Shown piece after piece: positions 46,933 to 53,965 of a DNA stretch of 64,000 nucleotides. A program made the translations under genes and the position numbers. The stretch comes from Roseivirga ehrenbergii (GTDB lineage: Bacteria > Bacteroidota > Bacteroidia > Cytophagales > Cyclobacteriaceae), in contig NZ_LQZQ01000001.1 of assembly GCF_001593005.1 (NCBI RefSeq), positions 62,001 to 126,000 on the forward strand, written 5' to 3'. The notes below the pieces were generated by a model. The model was given only the letters and a program-made list of their open reading frames with translations. It ran no database searches and was not told where the DNA came from. The stretch's first letter is position 1. The number at the start of each line of letters is the position of its first letter.

Positions 46933-47052
46933 AATACCTTTCACCCAAAATGATTTTAATATTCAGACAATTCGAATTTATTTTAATCACTCAATAGAGG
47001 ATTCCACTTTAAAACCACCTAAAAACGAGTATATTTAGAAAATTCCACTTTG

Positions 47053-47511
47053 ATGAAATTAGACGCTACCGACATTCGCATCTTAGAGATTCTACAAGAA
47101 GATGCTCGTATCACTACAAAAGCCCTTGCCGATCAGCTCAACCTTTCTACTACACCAGTCTTCGAGCGAATTAAACGTTTGGAAAGAGAAGGGGTTATTC
47201 GAAAATATGCGGCCTTACTCGATGGTAAAAAACTTGACTTAATGCTCACCGCATTTATTTCTATTTCGCTTACGAAACACAGCCGTATGTACTTAGAAAA
47301 ATTCGTGAATGAAATAAAGGCTTACCCCGAAGTAATGGAATGTTACCACATTGCTGGCAACTTCGATTTTCTTTTAAAAGTGGTGGTAAAAAGCATGGAA
47401 TCATACGAAACCTTTATTCTCACCAAACTCTCTACCACAGCAAATTTAGGTCAAGTACAAAGCTCATTTGTGCTCTCCAAAAACATTCATACTACGGCAT
47501 TTAGTTTTTAG
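47053..47511 (+). CDS. Lrp/AsnC-family transcriptional regulator
   Basis: 152 residues from the ATG at 47053 (the TTG at 47050 adds one residue). The N-terminal HTH reads LDATDIRILEILQEDARITTKALADQ, LSTTPVFERIKRLEREGVI, the standard Lrp pattern. The C-terminal RAM domain (CYHIAGNFDFLLKVVVKSME) binds an amino acid. It is divergent from the amino-acid dehydrogenase gene (176 bp), so it most likely regulates that gene and itself. The repeat ATTCCACTTT at 47001-47010 and 47042-47051 could be an operator. Confidence 0.92.
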   Translation: MKLDATDIRILEILQEDARITTKALADQLNLSTTPVFERIKRLEREGVIRKYAALLDGKKLDLMLTAFISISLTKHSRMYLEKFVNEIKAYPEVMECYHIAGNFDFLLKVVVKSMESYETFILTKLSTTANLGQVQSSFVLSKNIHTTAFSF

Positions 47512-47648
47512 TCCATAATTTACATTCGTCCATATAAGACAAGCACTTCTCCATTTCGTATTCTTTTCTTTCAAATGATTTATCTCAAGTATTTCATTGA
47601 AAACCTATATCTTCAAAACAAAGAACTGTGTTATCAAAAATACTAATC

Positions 47649-48746
47649 ATGAAAAAATTTATTCTATCTCTTTTTGCATTATGCCTTGCCCTAAGTTCTA
47701 CTGCCCAAACATGGACAACAAGTGCTCCCAATATTTATTATACTGGAGGCAATGTTGGGATCGGAACAAACAATCCCGTAAGGGACTTAAGCATTTTAGG
47801 TGCTTCAATCACGCCTTGGGTCAATTTAAGGATAGAAGGAGGCCGTACAGATTACTTTGGAAATACGGGAATTGAGCTTATCTCTCCTAATGCTACTGGA
47901 AATCTTGATATATCATACTATAATGACAAAAGTCTAAACCGAAATTATTACGGACAACCCATAGTTACTGGGGAGGGGTTCGCTCAGATTAGATCTATTG
48001 GGAATTTAGGGATCGGTACATCAGGTAATTATGGTTTATACTTTGGAACTAACAACACTAATGTCATGAGTATATTACCAAATGGCAATATAGGTATTGG
48101 TACAACCACGCCTTCAACAAAACTTGATGTACAAGGAAGTATATTTACCAATGGTATTTTAAAATCATCTAGAAGTGGTGCTGGTGGGGCTCAACTAATA
48201 TTAGAGAACACTTATGGGGTTTCTGAAGACTGGAGGATTCAAGCGGGTATTCCATCCATTGCTGATAACACATTCGCCATTCAAACAATAAGTAATTCCA
48301 CAACCAGACTGGCAATAAAAAACAATGGCTATGTAGGAATAGGCACTACCTCACCTACAGAAAAACTCTCGGTAGACGGCACAGTACTCGCTAAAAAAGT
48401 ACGTGTTTCCACTGCAGGTGCGGATTGGCCAGACTTCGTTTTCGCGCCCAACTTTAAACTAAGAACCCTAAACGAGCTGGAAGCTTATATAAAAGCCAAC
48501 CAACATTTACCCGAAGTACCTTCCGCAAAAGAAGTTGAAGAAAACGGGCTTGATTTGGGTAAGATGGATGCCACCCTGCTGCAAAAAGTGGAGGAGTTGA
48601 CGCTTTACACCATTGAGCAGGAGAAGAAAATTGAGATTTACATTAAAGAGAACTCTGATCTCAAAAAAGAAACCCAACAACTGAAAGCGATGTTCTTAGC
48701 GCTGAAAAAGGAGGTTGAAGCACTAAAAGAAAAGAACAAAGAATAG
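47649..48746 (+). CDS. Secreted fibre-like protein, array member 1
   Basis: 365 residues from the ATG at 47649; the TTG at 47628 precedes the signal peptide. Signal peptide [20 protein letters not shown], then repeated NVGIGTxxP-type motifs ([37 protein letters not shown]) as in beta-helical fibres. The C-terminal module has [20 protein letters not shown] and [18 protein letters not shown], then a coiled-coil tail (KKEVEALKEKNKE) that suggests trimerisation. Bacteroidota proteins with this module are often called tail-fibre-like, but no phage genes are near. Three paralogues follow. Function unknown. Confidence 0.8.
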   Translation: MKKFILSLFALCLALSSTAQTWTTSAPNIYYTGGNVGIGTNNPVRDLSILGASITPWVNLRIEGGRTDYFGNTGIELISPNATGNLDISYYNDKSLNRNYYGQPIVTGEGFAQIRSIGNLGIGTSGNYGLYFGTNNTNVMSILPNGNIGIGTTTPSTKLDVQGSIFTNGILKSSRSGAGGAQLILENTYGVSEDWRIQAGIPSIADNTFAIQTISNSTTRLAIKNNGYVGIGTTSPTEKLSVDGTVLAKKVRVSTAGADWPDFVFAPNFKLRTLNELEAYIKANQHLPEVPSAKEVEENGLDLGKMDATLLQKVEELTLYTIEQEKKIEIYIKENSDLKKETQQLKAMFLALKKEVEALKEKNKE

Positions 48747-48790
48747 CGCTAACACACATCTCACATACCACTTTATTCTTAACGACAAAC

Positions 48791-48838
48791 AGAAGGCCTT
48801 GAATTGATATAAACAATTCAAGACCTTCTTATTTTTTA
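48791..48838 (+). terminator. Terminator after fibre-like gene 1
   Basis: AGAAGGCCTTGAATTG (48791-48806) pairs with CAATTCAAGACCTTCT (48814-48829) apart from one mismatch, followed by TATTTTTTAAT. It separates fibre genes 1 and 2, so gene 2 has its own promoter. Confidence 0.85.
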
Positions 48839-48919
48839 ATGATTCAATAACTATCTTTCTTCTCCAATTTTTCTATAAAGTAAAGTACCTTGACTTTTTT
48901 AATTCAAAACCCCATCACC

Positions 48920-49975
48920 ATGAAAAAATTTATTCTATCTCTTTTTGCATTATGCCTTGCCCTAAGTTCTACTGCCCAAACATGGACGACCAGCGGCTCC
49001 AATATTTATTACAATGGAGGGAACGTGGGAATTGGAATTACATCCCCATGGGCAAAACTACATTTAGGAAGCTCTGGCATATTTGACACTCAAATGACCA
49101 CCACCGGACAGGATTTCCTCATCTTTAGACCAAATTCGATGCCTGGTAACGGAGGTTATTTTGGCGCAATGACTTGGCAAAGTGAAGGCAGAAGGAGAGC
49201 ATCTATAGCTGCAACTCAAGAAAACTCAGATTCCGACTATGTAGGATTGGCTTTTTTTACTCGAGGAACTGACGGACCAGGCCCTTTTTATGAAAGTATG
49301 AGATTAACTCATTCAGGAAACTTGGGTATTGGTACTTCAAATCCTTCAGGTAAGTTTCAAAGCTATATAAGTTCAAGTAGATATTTTGGCCATAATGTGA
49401 ATGGAGCTGATTTATCGGTTTTAAGTGATAACAATTCAGCACCAGTATTTAAAGTAGTCGGGACAGGAAATGCCGATTTGGTGAACATTTTTGACAACTC
49501 ATCAGAAGTATTTACAATCCTTGACGAAGGCAATTTAGGCATCGGTATAACCTCCCCCACTGAAAAATTAGAAGTTAACGGCACCATCCGCTCCAAAAAA
49601 GTAAAGGTTGAAGCTACAAACTGGCCAGATTACGTTTTTGCACCCAACTATAAACTAAGAACCCTAAACGAACTGGAGACCTACATCAAAGCCAACCAAC
49701 ACTTACCTGAAGTACCTTCAGCTAAAGAGGTAGAAAAAAACGGACTTGATCTGGGCAAAATGGATGCTACGCTGCTCCAGAAAGTAGAGGAATTGACGCT
49801 TTACTTGATTGAAGAGAATAAAAGATCTCAGACGCTAGAAGTTAGATATAAGATTTTAGAGAATGAAAATTCAAATCTCAAAACACAAATTTCAAAAGTT
49901 GAAAAGGAGAACCAAGAACTCAGAACCCTATTCATAGAACTGAAAAAGGAAATAGAGTCTCTGAAAAAGCAATAA
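48920..49975 (+). CDS. Secreted fibre-like protein, array member 2
   Basis: 351 residues from the ATG at 48920; the TTG at 48890 is spurious. The first 68 bp are identical to fibre gene 1, including the signal peptide. The middle differs ([34 protein letters not shown]) with [14 protein letters not shown] spacing repeats. The conserved end follows: [18 protein letters not shown], then [20 protein letters not shown] and a heptad coiled coil of about 70 residues to the C-terminus. The C-terminal module is close to genes 3 and 4 at the DNA level, so parts have been exchanged. Role unknown, probably exported and trimeric. Confidence 0.8.
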
Positions 49976-49985
49976 TATCAACCTC

Positions 49986-50106
49986 AACCGTCATTCCGAA
50001 CCTGACAACAGGAAGGTGAAGAAATCTGTCCGTTCTGGACTTCAACAGTTTTGAACCTACAGACTCTTTCGGTCTTCCCAAAAAGGAAGACACTCTGAGT
50101 GACGGT
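49986..50106. repeat. Imperfect palindromic intergenic repeat
   Basis: AACCGTCATTC (49986-49996) is complementary, at 9 of 11 positions, to GAGTGACGGTC (50096-50106 region), so the whole gap can fold back. Inside, GTCTTCC/GGAAGAC (50072-50078/50085-50091) makes a perfect 7-bp hairpin. The GTCATTCCGAAC start resembles a dispersed repeat seen in many Bacteroidota. It may also act as a transcription stop between fibre genes 2 and 3. Confidence 0.6.
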
Positions 50107-50154
50107 CATCAACGCTATTAATAATGACAGTCTAAACTCTAAATAAACTCAATT

Positions 50155-51351
50155 ATGAAAAAGATAATCTTCTCACTTCTGGCGCTTTGTGTCGCCAATC
50201 TTGCTCTTGCACAAGGTATTCAGGTTTCTGGCAGCCCTATTTACTACAATGGAGGTACCGTTAATATTGGTGGGTTGAATAACTCAAGCCTTGTTGTTAG
50301 ACATTTAGAAGGAAAAGAAGCTAATACAACTTCCCCAGATCACCTTTACTTAAATTATAATAATGCGAAGGACGTATTTGTTGGCTTTGGAGGGTTAAGC
50401 TCCAATCTTCTTGTAAGTGGATACTTGGGTGTTGGCACTTCTTCGCCAACCTACACTTTGAGTGTTAAAGGTGGACCTCCCAATGCGCAAGGTCTAAATA
50501 TTATGGATGCCAATTCGAGAATTTACTTTGATGGTAGAAGAGCAATGGAGGGGCATAATAATTTAAGTAGACTCGATATTGGAGAGGGTTTCGATAATAT
50601 TCAGCTTATGGGGAATATTGGTATTGGCACCACTGCTCCAAGTGAAAAGTTAGAAATCTTTGATTCGAACACCAGCCCTGGCGTTATTTCGTTGATGAGC
50701 GAACGCAATGACAATTCGTATGTAGATGTAGGTCGAATTAGCGCTAAGCAAAACACTGTTGAAATAGCCAGAATAGGCTTACCAAGGGCTGGCTACACGA
50801 ATAGTGGTTTTTTAACATTTTGGACAAAATCTGATAACAATGCTAATCTGTCTGAAAAAGTACGCATCGATGAAAACGGAAATGTAGGCATCGGCACCAC
50901 CTCCCCCACTGAAAAATTAGAAGTTAACGGCACAATCCGCTCCAAAAAAGTAAAGGTTGAAGCTACGGGTTGGCCAGACTTCGTTTTCGAACCAAACTAT
51001 AAACTAAGAACCCTAAACGAGCTGGAAGCTTATATAAAAACCAACCAACACTTACCCGAAGTACCTTCCGCAAAAGAAGTTGAAGAAAACGGCCTTGATT
51101 TAGGTAAAATGGATGCTACATTGTTACAGAAAGTGGAAGAGTTGACGCTTTACATCATTGAGCAAGACAAGAGTCAGAAGACATTAGATATTAGACAAGA
51201 GAAGTTAGACGCTAAGAACCTACAACTCGAGAAAGAAAACCGAGAACTCAAAACTACACTCCAAAAAGTATTAAAAAGAATCGAAAAACTTGAATCTGCT
51301 GACATCTCCCCTGTGGGGAGGACGAGTGGGACTAAAACCAACAACCATTAA
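50155..51351 (+). CDS. Secreted fibre-like protein, array member 3
   Basis: 398 residues. Signal peptide [20 protein letters not shown], close to that of gene 4 but not to genes 1-2. [14 protein letters not shown], then [17 protein letters not shown] lead to the common C-terminal module [38 protein letters not shown], then a coiled coil. The last residues ([17 protein letters not shown]) are unlike the other members and are encoded by a CTCCCC-TGT-GGGGAG palindrome (51306-51320), so the C-terminus looks repeat-derived. Ends 12 bp before gene 4, so genes 3 and 4 are probably co-transcribed. Confidence 0.8.
51306..51320. repeat. REP-like palindrome inside fibre gene 3
   Basis: CTCCCC and GGGGAG flank TGT, a perfect 6-bp-arm hairpin. 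It is in frame and encodes part of the C-terminal tail of the fibre-like protein. Its style resembles the REP-like units at 1974-2180 only in general form. Confidence 0.55.
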
Positions 51352-51363
51352 ATAACCTCAATT

Positions 51364-52542
51364 ATGAAAAAAATAATCTTATCATTTCTGGCGCTTTGTG
51401 TCGCCAATTTTGCTTTTGCACAATGGACTACCAGTGTACCCAATATTTATTATACGGGAGGGAATGTTGGGATTGGTACCGCAAGTCCAACTGCCTTACT
51501 GGAGCTACAGAACGGACAACAACAGATGAGATTTTTGACAGGCATTAACACAAGTGGTTATATGCTCGATATTGGCGTTAACGATAATGGCGTGAATTTC
51601 CATAACAACTCTGTAGGTAGAGGATATAATTTTACAAATGCAGCAAGCGATCACCTACTCACAATTAAAAGTAATGGTAACATTGGAATGGGCACAACTT
51701 CACCCTCGGCAAAATTACATCTAACCAACGGATCACAAGATATCAGACTCCTCACTGGCACCAATACAAGTGGTTATATGCTCGATATTGGCGTTAACGA
51801 TAATGGCGTGAATTTCCATAACAACTCTGTAGGTAGAGGATATAATTTTACAAATGCAGCAAGCGATCACCTACTCACGATTAAAAGTAATGGTGACATT
51901 GGAATTGGTACAACATCTCCAACATATGGAAAACTAGATGTCAATGGAATAATTGCATCTTCTAAACTTGGGCAAGGCGACCCTAGCACAAATTATGATG
52001 TAGGCACCAGAATTGCACTCAATGGTGCAAATGTAAACCCTTATGCCATTGGACTTGGTGCTAATGATGATGACAGGTACCCAATGTGGTTTCAAACAGG
52101 AACGATTAATGGTGGTGGATTTGAATGGTTTATCGGAACATCTGAAAAGATGAGAATTGATAAACAGGGCAACCTAGGCATCGGCACCACCTCTCCCAAC
52201 GAAAAACTAGAAGTTAACGGCACCATCCGTTCCAAAAAAGTAAAAGTTGAAGCTTCTCCTTGGCCAGACTTCGTTTTCGCGCCCAACTTTAAACTAAGAA
52301 CTTTAAACGAGCTGGAAGCTTACATCAAAGCCAACCAACATTTACCTGAAGTACCTTCTGCCAAAGAAGTAGAAGAAAACGGTCTTGATTTGGGCAAAAT
52401 GGATGCTGCCCTGCTGCAAAAAGTAGAGGAGTTAACTTTGTATTTGATTGAAATGAACAAAACTCAAATACAGCTTATCGAAGAAATGGAGATGCTAAAG
52501 AAAGAAAATACAGCGCTGAAAAAAAGCATGAAGAATAATTAG
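51364..52542 (+). CDS. Secreted fibre-like protein, array member 4, with internal duplication
   Basis: 392 residues. Signal peptide [35 protein letters not shown] opens the fibre region. Two 72-residue repeats follow, each with [17 protein letters not shown] and [15 protein letters not shown], starting near residues 63 and 135. A variable segment ([14 protein letters not shown]) precedes the shared end [40 protein letters not shown] and a shorter coiled coil. A 216-bp duplication explains the repeats. A bidirectional terminator follows. Function is unknown; probably an exported trimeric fibre. Confidence 0.8.
51550..51981 (+). repeat. 216-bp tandem duplication within fibre gene 4
   Basis: Copies start at 51550 and 51766, exactly 216 bp (72 codons) apart. 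The first about 110 bp of each are identical, with only a few substitutions in the next 50 bp. The second half of the downstream unit diverges, so the similarity fades toward about 51925. The duplication is in frame and recent. Confidence 0.8.
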
Positions 52543-52602: not shown

Positions 52603-52621
52603 CCACCCTATTTAATGAAAA

Positions 52622-53965
52622 TTACACCGCTTGACTGAATAGTTTGTTCCCACTTTGTGGTTCGTAATATTCATCAAAAAGCGCACAGATATTTCTGAGG
52701 AACATCATACCCTTTTTGGTCACTTGGTAGTTGAGGCAGAAGCGCTCAATTAAACCTTCATCTACCATTTGATTGAAAGCGGTATATTTTTCAGAATTAA
52801 GTTCGAGCACATTGCGCATTTGAATACGGGCACTGCAAGCAATATCGAGAATCAATTTCTTAGCTTCCATTTCAGGGACGGTCATCAAATGACCTTTGAA
52901 CATTGGAAATTCTCCAGCCTCAACTTTTGCTCTATAGCCTTCTACAGACTTCACATTTTGCGCATATGCCACGCCAATATCAGATATTGAAGATACTCCC
53001 AAACCAATCATAAAATTAGTTCTAGATTCGGTATAACCCATAAAATTACGATGCAGCCTTCCTTTACTTCTGGCTTGGCAAAGAGGATCTTCAGGCAAAG
53101 CAAAATGATCCATCCCAATGGCTTGATATCCCATATCTAGCAACAAGGCCTGACCAAGCATATTCAGTTTGTGCTTTTCTTCTCCCTGAGGAATATTTTC
53201 TTCAGAATAAGCCCTTTGGCCTGGCTTTGCCCAAGGCACATGCGCATAACTGTAAAAAGCAATGCGGTCGGGCATAAAGGTTTTTACTACATCCATGGTC
53301 TGCTTGATGCCATAAATGGTTTGAAAAGGAAGGCCGTAAATCAGGTCAAAATTCACGGAAGTATATCCAATTTCTCTGGCTGCTTTGGTTACCTTTTCAA
53401 TATTTTCTAAAGGCTGTAGTCGATTAATGGCTTTTTGTACTTTAAAATCTACATCCTGCACACCATAACTTACACGGGTAAAACCGACTTCGTAAAGTGC
53501 TACCAAATGTTCGTAAGTGGTATTGTTTGGGTGACCTTCAAAACTGAATTGATAATCGGGGTGAACATCTACCGTATCGAGGATGGACTCCATTAAGTAC
53601 CGTAAGTTTTCAGGAGAGAAAAACGTTGGAGTTCCTCCGCCTAAATGTATTTCTCTTACCAGCGGTTTTTCACCAAAAAGGTCTAAGTATAACTTCCACT
53701 CTTTGAGTAAAGATTCGATATAAGGTAATTCTACCTTATGATTGATCGTAATACGCGTATTGCAACCACAATAAGTACAGAGGGATTCACAATAAGGTAA
53801 GTGAAGATATAAGCTTATTCCTTCTTCTTTTGTTTGCTGAAAAGAAGCTTTCAACCGCCCTTTATATTCCTCAAGTTGAAAAGCGTTTACATCCCAAGCC
53901 GGCACTGTTGGGTAACTGGTGTATCTTGGAACTGGCACATCGTATTTCTTCACTAAATCAATCAT
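52622..53965 (-). CDS. hemN: Oxygen-independent coproporphyrinogen III oxidase
   Basis: 447 residues, full HemN length. LPYCESLCTYCGCNTRI holds the radical-SAM CxxxCxxC cluster. IHLGGGTPTFFSPENLRYLM, FEGHPNNTTYEHL, YGVQDVDFKVQKAINRLQ and the C-terminal QSGNKLFSQAV region follow the HemN order. The enzyme decarboxylates coproporphyrinogen III to protoporphyrinogen IX without oxygen. Its start overlaps ccoS by 8 bp, making it the last gene of the Fnr-linked transcript. Heme production under low oxygen fits the cbb3-assembly neighbours. Confidence 0.96.
   Translation of the reverse strand: MIDLVKKYDVPVPRYTSYPTVPAWDVNAFQLEEYKGRLKASFQQTKEEGISLYLHLPYCESLCTYCGCNTRITINHKVELPYIESLLKEWKLYLDLFGEKPLVREIHLGGGTPTFFSPENLRYLMESILDTVDVHPDYQFSFEGHPNNTTYEHLVALYEVGFTRVSYGVQDVDFKVQKAINRLQPLENIEKVTKAAREIGYTSVNFDLIYGLPFQTIYGIKQTMDVVKTFMPDRIAFYSYAHVPWAKPGQRAYSEENIPQGEEKHKLNMLGQALLLDMGYQAIGMDHFALPEDPLCQARSKGRLHRNFMGYTESRTNFMIGLGVSSISDIGVAYAQNVKSVEGYRAKVEAGEFPMFKGHLMTVPEMEAKKLILDIACSARIQMRNVLELNSEKYTAFNQMVDEGLIERFCLNYQVTKKGMMFLRNICALFDEYYEPQSGNKLFSQAV

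Follow-up and report, generated by a model that had tools for sequence, protein, structure and literature searches.

MAT fibres of Bdellovibrio bacteriovorus combine a constant N-terminus with variable tips, and their loops cap trimeric beta-helices and bound a cleft that has been compared to a glycan-binding cleft; the same paper also refers to further strains, 'predatory and otherwise' (PMC10769870). A second comparison is offered by the S74/ICA domains of phage tailspikes and MyRF, which act as C-terminal intramolecular chaperones. Here, we describe a tandem array of four fibre-like genes in a 64,000-nucleotide (nt) stretch of the Roseivirga ehrenbergii genome (contig NZ_LQZQ01000001.1; hereafter the window, in whose positions all coordinates are given). 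The genes lie head to tail on the + strand, as do all array features below, within 47649-52542 and encode exported-type proteins of 351-398 residues. We consider it fairly probable that these proteins are MAT-like trimeric fibre adhesins, exported and diversified by recombination at capping loops, with homogenised ends and a constant trimerising cap.

Each protein begins like a signal peptide, up to an AQ, and continues with a body, then a C module of ~87 residues and finally a coiled-coil tail. The hydrophobic AQ-ending leaders were recognised in all four proteins by eye and with a crude rule rather than a dedicated predictor. By phmmer, a capping-loop element matches the Bdellovibrio MAT fibre Bd2133 (PDB 8ond) at E 4e-12 to 2e-5 across the genes, namely gene 1 (47649-48746, 365 residues, E 1.6e-5), gene 2 (48920-49975, 351 residues, E 1e-5), gene 3 (50155-51351, 398 residues, E 4.2e-12) and gene 4 (51364-52542, 392 residues, E 1.5e-10). 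For genes 1 and 2 we used the ATG codons at 47649 and 48920; their listed open reading frames (ORFs) begin at an upstream GTG and TTG, respectively. The array loops align to VGINTAAPLQKL and VGIGATAPTAKL of Bd2133, and both aligned loops have one extra residue after V-G compared to the printed MAT motif V-G-G/N-pi-X-X-P-X-X-X-L. Like the MATs, the array proteins have a signal peptide and repeated capping loops, belong to a multigene family and are mosaic in make-up; besides their similarity to the Bd2133 structure, some genes also resemble Bd1334, Bd2439 and Bd3182. They differ in having a constant C-terminal end and a varying shaft, the reverse of the MATs as described, and in length, MATs being typically ~1,000 residues (PMC10769870). 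The array genes are also tandem, and no match to published MAT tip domains was seen. Because no counterpart of the conserved ~130-residue beta-rich domain that follows the MAT signal peptide was seen in the array (the Bdellovibrio domain itself was not compared), we do not file these proteins as MATs, although their working appears MAT-like.

A first-pass annotation of the locus had described four same-strand paralogues with constant ends and variable middles, and the ORFs, the AQ-ending leaders and profile matches to the C module bear this out. The C module lies at 48360-48626 in gene 1 (residues 238-326), 49562-49822 in gene 2 (residues 215-301), 50911-51171 in gene 3 (residues 253-339) and 52201-52461 in gene 4 (residues 280-366). 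Genes 1 and 2 had been reported as identical over their first 68 bp, and we found an exact match of 69 nt (47648-47716 and 48919-48987), i.e. 68 nt counted from the ATG. Genes 3 and 4 indeed share a different leader, which is 92% identical over 75 nt (50140-50214 and 51349-51423; repeat family D7), 15 nt upstream included. The four proteins have ~40 N-terminal residues in common and diverge beyond them.

The C-terminal DNA matches cross these leader groups, as the annotation had stated. Genes 2 and 3 have exact stretches of 35 nt (from 49550) and 32 nt (from 49586) in common, and genes 1 and 3 exact stretches of 40 nt (from 48455) and 41 nt (from 48507). None of the informative C-module sites supports the leader grouping of genes 1 and 2 versus genes 3 and 4, compared to seven that join genes 1 and 3 versus 2 and 4 and five that join genes 1 and 4 versus 2 and 3. 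A run-length permutation over 71 polymorphic C-module sites gave p < 0.05 (uncorrected) in four of the six gene pairs and was strongest for genes 2 and 3 (p = 0.0006); confined to the inner 43 sites, it reached p < 0.05 in none of the six. Synonymous divergence between the C modules is 0.5-1.2, so most exchange there is old, and recent events look limited to the leader of genes 1 and 2 and part of gene 4.

Capping loops cut each body into a series of blocks; in the DNA of the array they appear as eleven repeats of 33 nt each within 47748-52200 (first 47748-47780, last 52168-52200; repeat family D2). Two consecutive blocks of one gene in the related genome G016 reappear split between array genes 1 and 2. 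Its block at residues 33-113 is the homologue of residues 146-226 of gene 1 (48084-48326; 74% identity over 80 residues; block family 25), and its next block, residues 114-184, that of residues 133-203 of gene 2 (49316-49528; 88% over 56 residues; block family 12). Each of three gene 3 blocks has a different partner set: residues 21-88 (50215-50418; block family 13) pair with G016_L044_10859 at 61% over 59 residues, residues 89-152 (50419-50610; block family 0) with genes in G001, G003, G011 and G016 (76% over 49 residues to G011), and residues 153-241 (50611-50877) with G013_L049_5085 at 76% over 75 residues. Gene 4 contains two tandem units of 216 nt, the spacing of the capping loops (51460-51891; repeat families D2 and D3, offset profile); 113 nt are identical between them (51550-51662 and 51766-51878), and the two units have diverged over about their first 90 nt. 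The array's shared blocks measure 64-89 residues and are 61-88% identical to those of relatives, resembling an ordinary orthologue such as AsnC (81%). Block shuffling therefore appears to have been common over the lifetime of the genus and is not demonstrated to be fast.

We assessed the same features across the genus. Family matches numbered 149 over all 19 positive genomes, 114 of them in the genus, and from the latter we chose regions that hold 91 family genes in 11 genomes, the array's four included. This sample is thin for G007 (2 of 11) and G009 (6 of 15), and G002 and G018 contributed none. Arrays of two to eight genes, 21 in all, hold 62 of the 91 genes. The closest C module belongs to the same array for 44 of these 62, whereas 2000 label shuffles gave at most 14, and C modules have a median identity of 79% inside one locus, compared to 57% across genomes. 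The best body match, for the 56 array genes that have one, lies in the same array in 10 cases and in another genome in 43. At the asnC, argG and ABC-transporter sites, which are shared between species, it falls outside the other species' matching locus for 21 of 24 genes, the three exceptions all being at the argG site. We identified such sites by eye from the genes next to them, and two guessed pairs of syntenic loci (L191/L193 and L187/L194) were not relied upon.

Cutting the bodies at capping loops yielded 204 blocks, after blocks with a core under 25 residues had been dropped. Among them, 43 cross-genome pairs reach at least 60% identity. Neighbouring blocks could be compared on 35 sides, of which 33 were unrelated and two, from a single gene pair, homologous; on the remaining sides one block (22 sides) or both (29 sides) stood at an end. 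These comparisons have genes in common and hence are not independent. The ends of strong alignments lay no more than 8 residues from a loop in 23 of 43 cases (random 17%, maximum 33% in 200 randomisations), for which the loop's own conservation could account in part. Members without loops are inherited whole, as in three genomes that share a 224-residue body at 76% identity, in keeping with the loop being the joint. Uniform divergence without exchange, which the annotation had named as the observation that would speak against its mosaic idea, did not occur in the 11 genomes. It is extremely unlikely that there was no exchange and that bodies merely evolve fast between slow-evolving ends: the ends are probably functionally constrained and the bodies plausibly under diversifying selection, but in 33 of 35 comparisons cross-species blocks of at least 60% identity adjoin unrelated ones, the grouping by leader conflicts with that by C module, and one G016 gene has its consecutive blocks spread over two array genes.

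Two arrays of G016 were noted for their layout. One consists of eight family genes in a row with exactly 5 nt between each (L044:9915-18187). The other, of five genes (L047:3950-10713), has near-identical leaders in four genes, spacers of ~430 nt and a 162-residue body that is identical in two genes. An ORF that follows the array in G011 (L051:5921-6295) resembles DUF559-type endonucleases.

From the sequences, the mosaicism of the array is thus strongly supported, and the first-pass annotation was right on this point. Its picture of fibre bodies exchanged on a fixed anchor needs two corrections: the exchanged unit is the loop-bounded block and not a whole body, and nothing marks the constant part as an anchor, the C module being closer in appearance to a chaperone that trimerises. 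Homologous recombination is the simplest account. Repeated loop DNA and near-constant 5' and 3' ends would serve as joints at which the frame is kept and cuts fall between folding units; whole blocks could then be exchanged, duplicated or replaced in frame between genes, loci and species, and gene conversion inside the array would keep the ends alike. Each chain would start with its signal peptide, continue as a shaft in which capping loops split a few blocks and end in the constant C-terminal cap, with binding specificity located in the variable shaft. The array would then act as the 'surface-diversification system' that the annotation had suggested.

Constant ends around variable middles also resemble programmed switches, in which an invertase shufflon, a diversity-generating retroelement or a site-specific recombinase would rearrange the array. 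We regard this as very unlikely, since all genes are on one strand, with a single inverted repeat of at least 25 nt (28 nt at 75%), and inspection by eye, without profile scans, revealed no recombinase or reverse transcriptase around the array or among the listed neighbours of eight relative loci.

To characterize the C module, we modelled that of gene 4 with its flanks (52159-52539) in AlphaFold2, which confidently predicted a pair of short helices and one long coiled coil, at a predicted local distance difference test score (pLDDT) of 94.8. A full-length model of gene 4, built from four rows, reached a pLDDT of 34 and was set aside. In the model, the module resembles S74/ICA domains in its C-terminal position behind a capping loop, its two short helices and its terminal coiled coil, and it leaves little room for the beta strands of the MyRF cleavage 'donut' (PMC8326128). 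Foldseek against viral models gave a hint only: 14 of 50 listed hits were named S74 or intramolecular chaperone, none significantly, and the best (E 0.016) was an uncharacterised Megaviridae protein. With VIA-align, 7dc3 was the only S74-type structure listed among 40 chains compared. Nothing significant was found for the module in Pfam or among solved structures, and sequence evidence for S74 homology is weak once the coil is removed.

The array modules also lack the conserved Ser-Lys dyad and a Pfam S74 match. PF13884 was absent among the families reported for the four genes (E <= 1) and for 30 C modules (E <= 0.1). In an alignment (A2) of the four array genes with 122 of 203 eligible relatives, hand-picked to thin near-duplicates, and with the register inferred, the SDxxxK dyad of S74 is not conserved: the Ser position holds Ser in 26 of 126 rows and the Lys position Lys in 8 of 126. 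Both occur in three rows (L068, L125 and L138), compared to a chance expectation of 1.7, and the four array genes have Pro at the Ser position and no Lys. In the same register, the position at which S74 would carry Ser-Asp has an Asp that never varies, with Ser before it in 26 of 126 rows. The array proteins are therefore not S74 peptidases. Because the dyad is not kept and the cleavage-site strands are seemingly absent, the cap probably stays attached to the protein. The likeness to a reduced, protease-less S74/ICA chaperone is suggestive of homology, and the array cap may descend from S74; it would trimerise the chain and aid folding of the shaft in the way of an S74/ICA intramolecular chaperone. 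The same genome does contain an S74 fibre (G000:C1:436366-436527, in an 877-residue open frame), which likewise ends in a chaperone-type domain and a coiled-coil-like tail but carries an SDxxLK motif and matches PF13884. In relatives, S74 fibres at L171, L174, L176 and L186 continue into an apparent sorting domain of the type IX secretion system (T9SS), which suggests a surface route for such fibres.

The C module could instead be a signal that targets or anchors proteins to the outer surface, like a T9SS C-terminal domain, with its S74 likeness a convergence around the coiled coil. This would suit a constant C-terminal module that is present in 55 of the 296 Bacteroidota genomes sampled, the present one included, and at no fewer than 574 places in a genome collection, mostly on otherwise different secreted proteins of Bacteroidota; the weak S74 signal without the coil also agrees with it. 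We nevertheless think an anchor improbable. No T9SS or other sorting domain was found in Pfam or NCBIfam at E <= 1, in the four genes the module directly follows a capping loop, as the ICA follows the stalk in MyRF, and the module also ends proteins on phage contigs, which would hardly need an anchor to a bacterial surface. These phage proteins have no apparent signal peptide by eye, and their contigs carry tail sheath or baseplate genes. On one such contig (L150:87-8324), a 2745-residue gene has the same C module and 17 capping-loop-like motifs by a loose pattern.

The phage link extends to the array itself, as each of the four proteins has tail-fibre matches in PHROGs (best 5e-23), among them to phrog_18345 and phrog_9942, with best stretches that take in the capping loops. 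The array proteins differ from these families in being cellular, of exported type and away from recognised phage genes. Together with the module's occurrence on phage contigs, these matches would agree with a prophage or tailocin remnant whose genes encode tail fibres, a reading that we consider highly unlikely. Signal-peptide-like starts were found by the crude rule in 89 of the 91 genus genes, and a search of 50,697 phage records with the gene 4 module gave nothing at E 1e-5. The annotation had seen no phage genes nearby, and we agree: no recombinase or phage gene was recognised beside the array when ORFs were judged by eye and not profile-scanned. The flanks look metabolic rather than phage-structural, with an asnC-type gene (47050-47511) on one side and a convergent hemN-type gene (52622-53965) on the other; the flanking genes putatively encode an AsnC/Lrp-type regulator, a HemN-type protein, a dehydrogenase and a P-type ATPase, as named from sequence and not by profile scan. 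None of three scanned phage fibre proteins bearing the C module matched a PHROGs family at 1e-5. Pfam and NCBIfam returned nothing for the array proteins at curated cut-offs, and PADLOC a single weak match, on the coiled coil (E 0.014).

By blastn, the segment 47511-52615 is absent from the sister species G005, which is 95% identical at hemN: its homology to the window runs up to 47510 and picks up again at 52616, with 18 nt in place of the segment, and asnC and hemN are 24 nt apart. The genomes of G005, G014 and G006 have no family matches, and in G014 asnC lies 136 nt from valS. The empty site and these copy-less genomes would fit recent acquisition of the array as a unit by horizontal transfer, its mosaic having formed elsewhere. 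We consider this rather unlikely. No foreign composition was seen, GC content being 39.5% in the array and 39.8% in the window, and two distant relatives have copies downstream of the same asnC-type gene, before valS (two in G001, one in G013), which agrees equally well with an old site followed by losses. Further shared array sites, recognised by eye from their neighbours, lie beside argG (G016 and G001) and an ABC transporter (G010 and G013). In the 4.24 Mb R. ehrenbergii genome (99.99% complete), no family copies were found beyond these four.

The array pattern is repeated in related species and points to a widespread, little-studied group of probable adhesins. More tentatively, we propose that exported trimeric fibres form a large and so far unrecognised family in Bacteroidota. 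In this family the capping loop would join the protein structure and the DNA alike, shafts are rebuilt block by block and a protease-less S74 relic forms the permanent cap. Among the matches listed in a literature search, we recognised no paper on this C module or on capping-loop block shuffling in Bacteroidota. If true, our proposal would extend MAT-like fibres to a large group outside Bdellovibrio, with combinatorial binding specificity sited in the shaft, the inverse of Bdellovibrio tip swapping. It would also provide a searchable handle on an adhesin class of a phylum that matters in marine, soil and gut communities, hint at how S74-type caps lose their protease and make recombination at a structural joint directly testable.

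Smaller features were noted between and within the array genes. The 165-nt spacer of genes 2 and 3 (49976-50140) has a partial second genomic copy at 80% over 49 nt. Gene 3 alone has an extra C-terminal tail (51295-51351), which overlies a short, GC-rich palindrome noticed by eye and whose pattern occurs once in the genome. With one weak partial copy and no second pattern match, respectively, both were dropped as candidate dispersed repeats. Between genes 1 and 2, a stem at 48791-48829 is terminator-like on both strands and forms 16 pairs on the minus strand.
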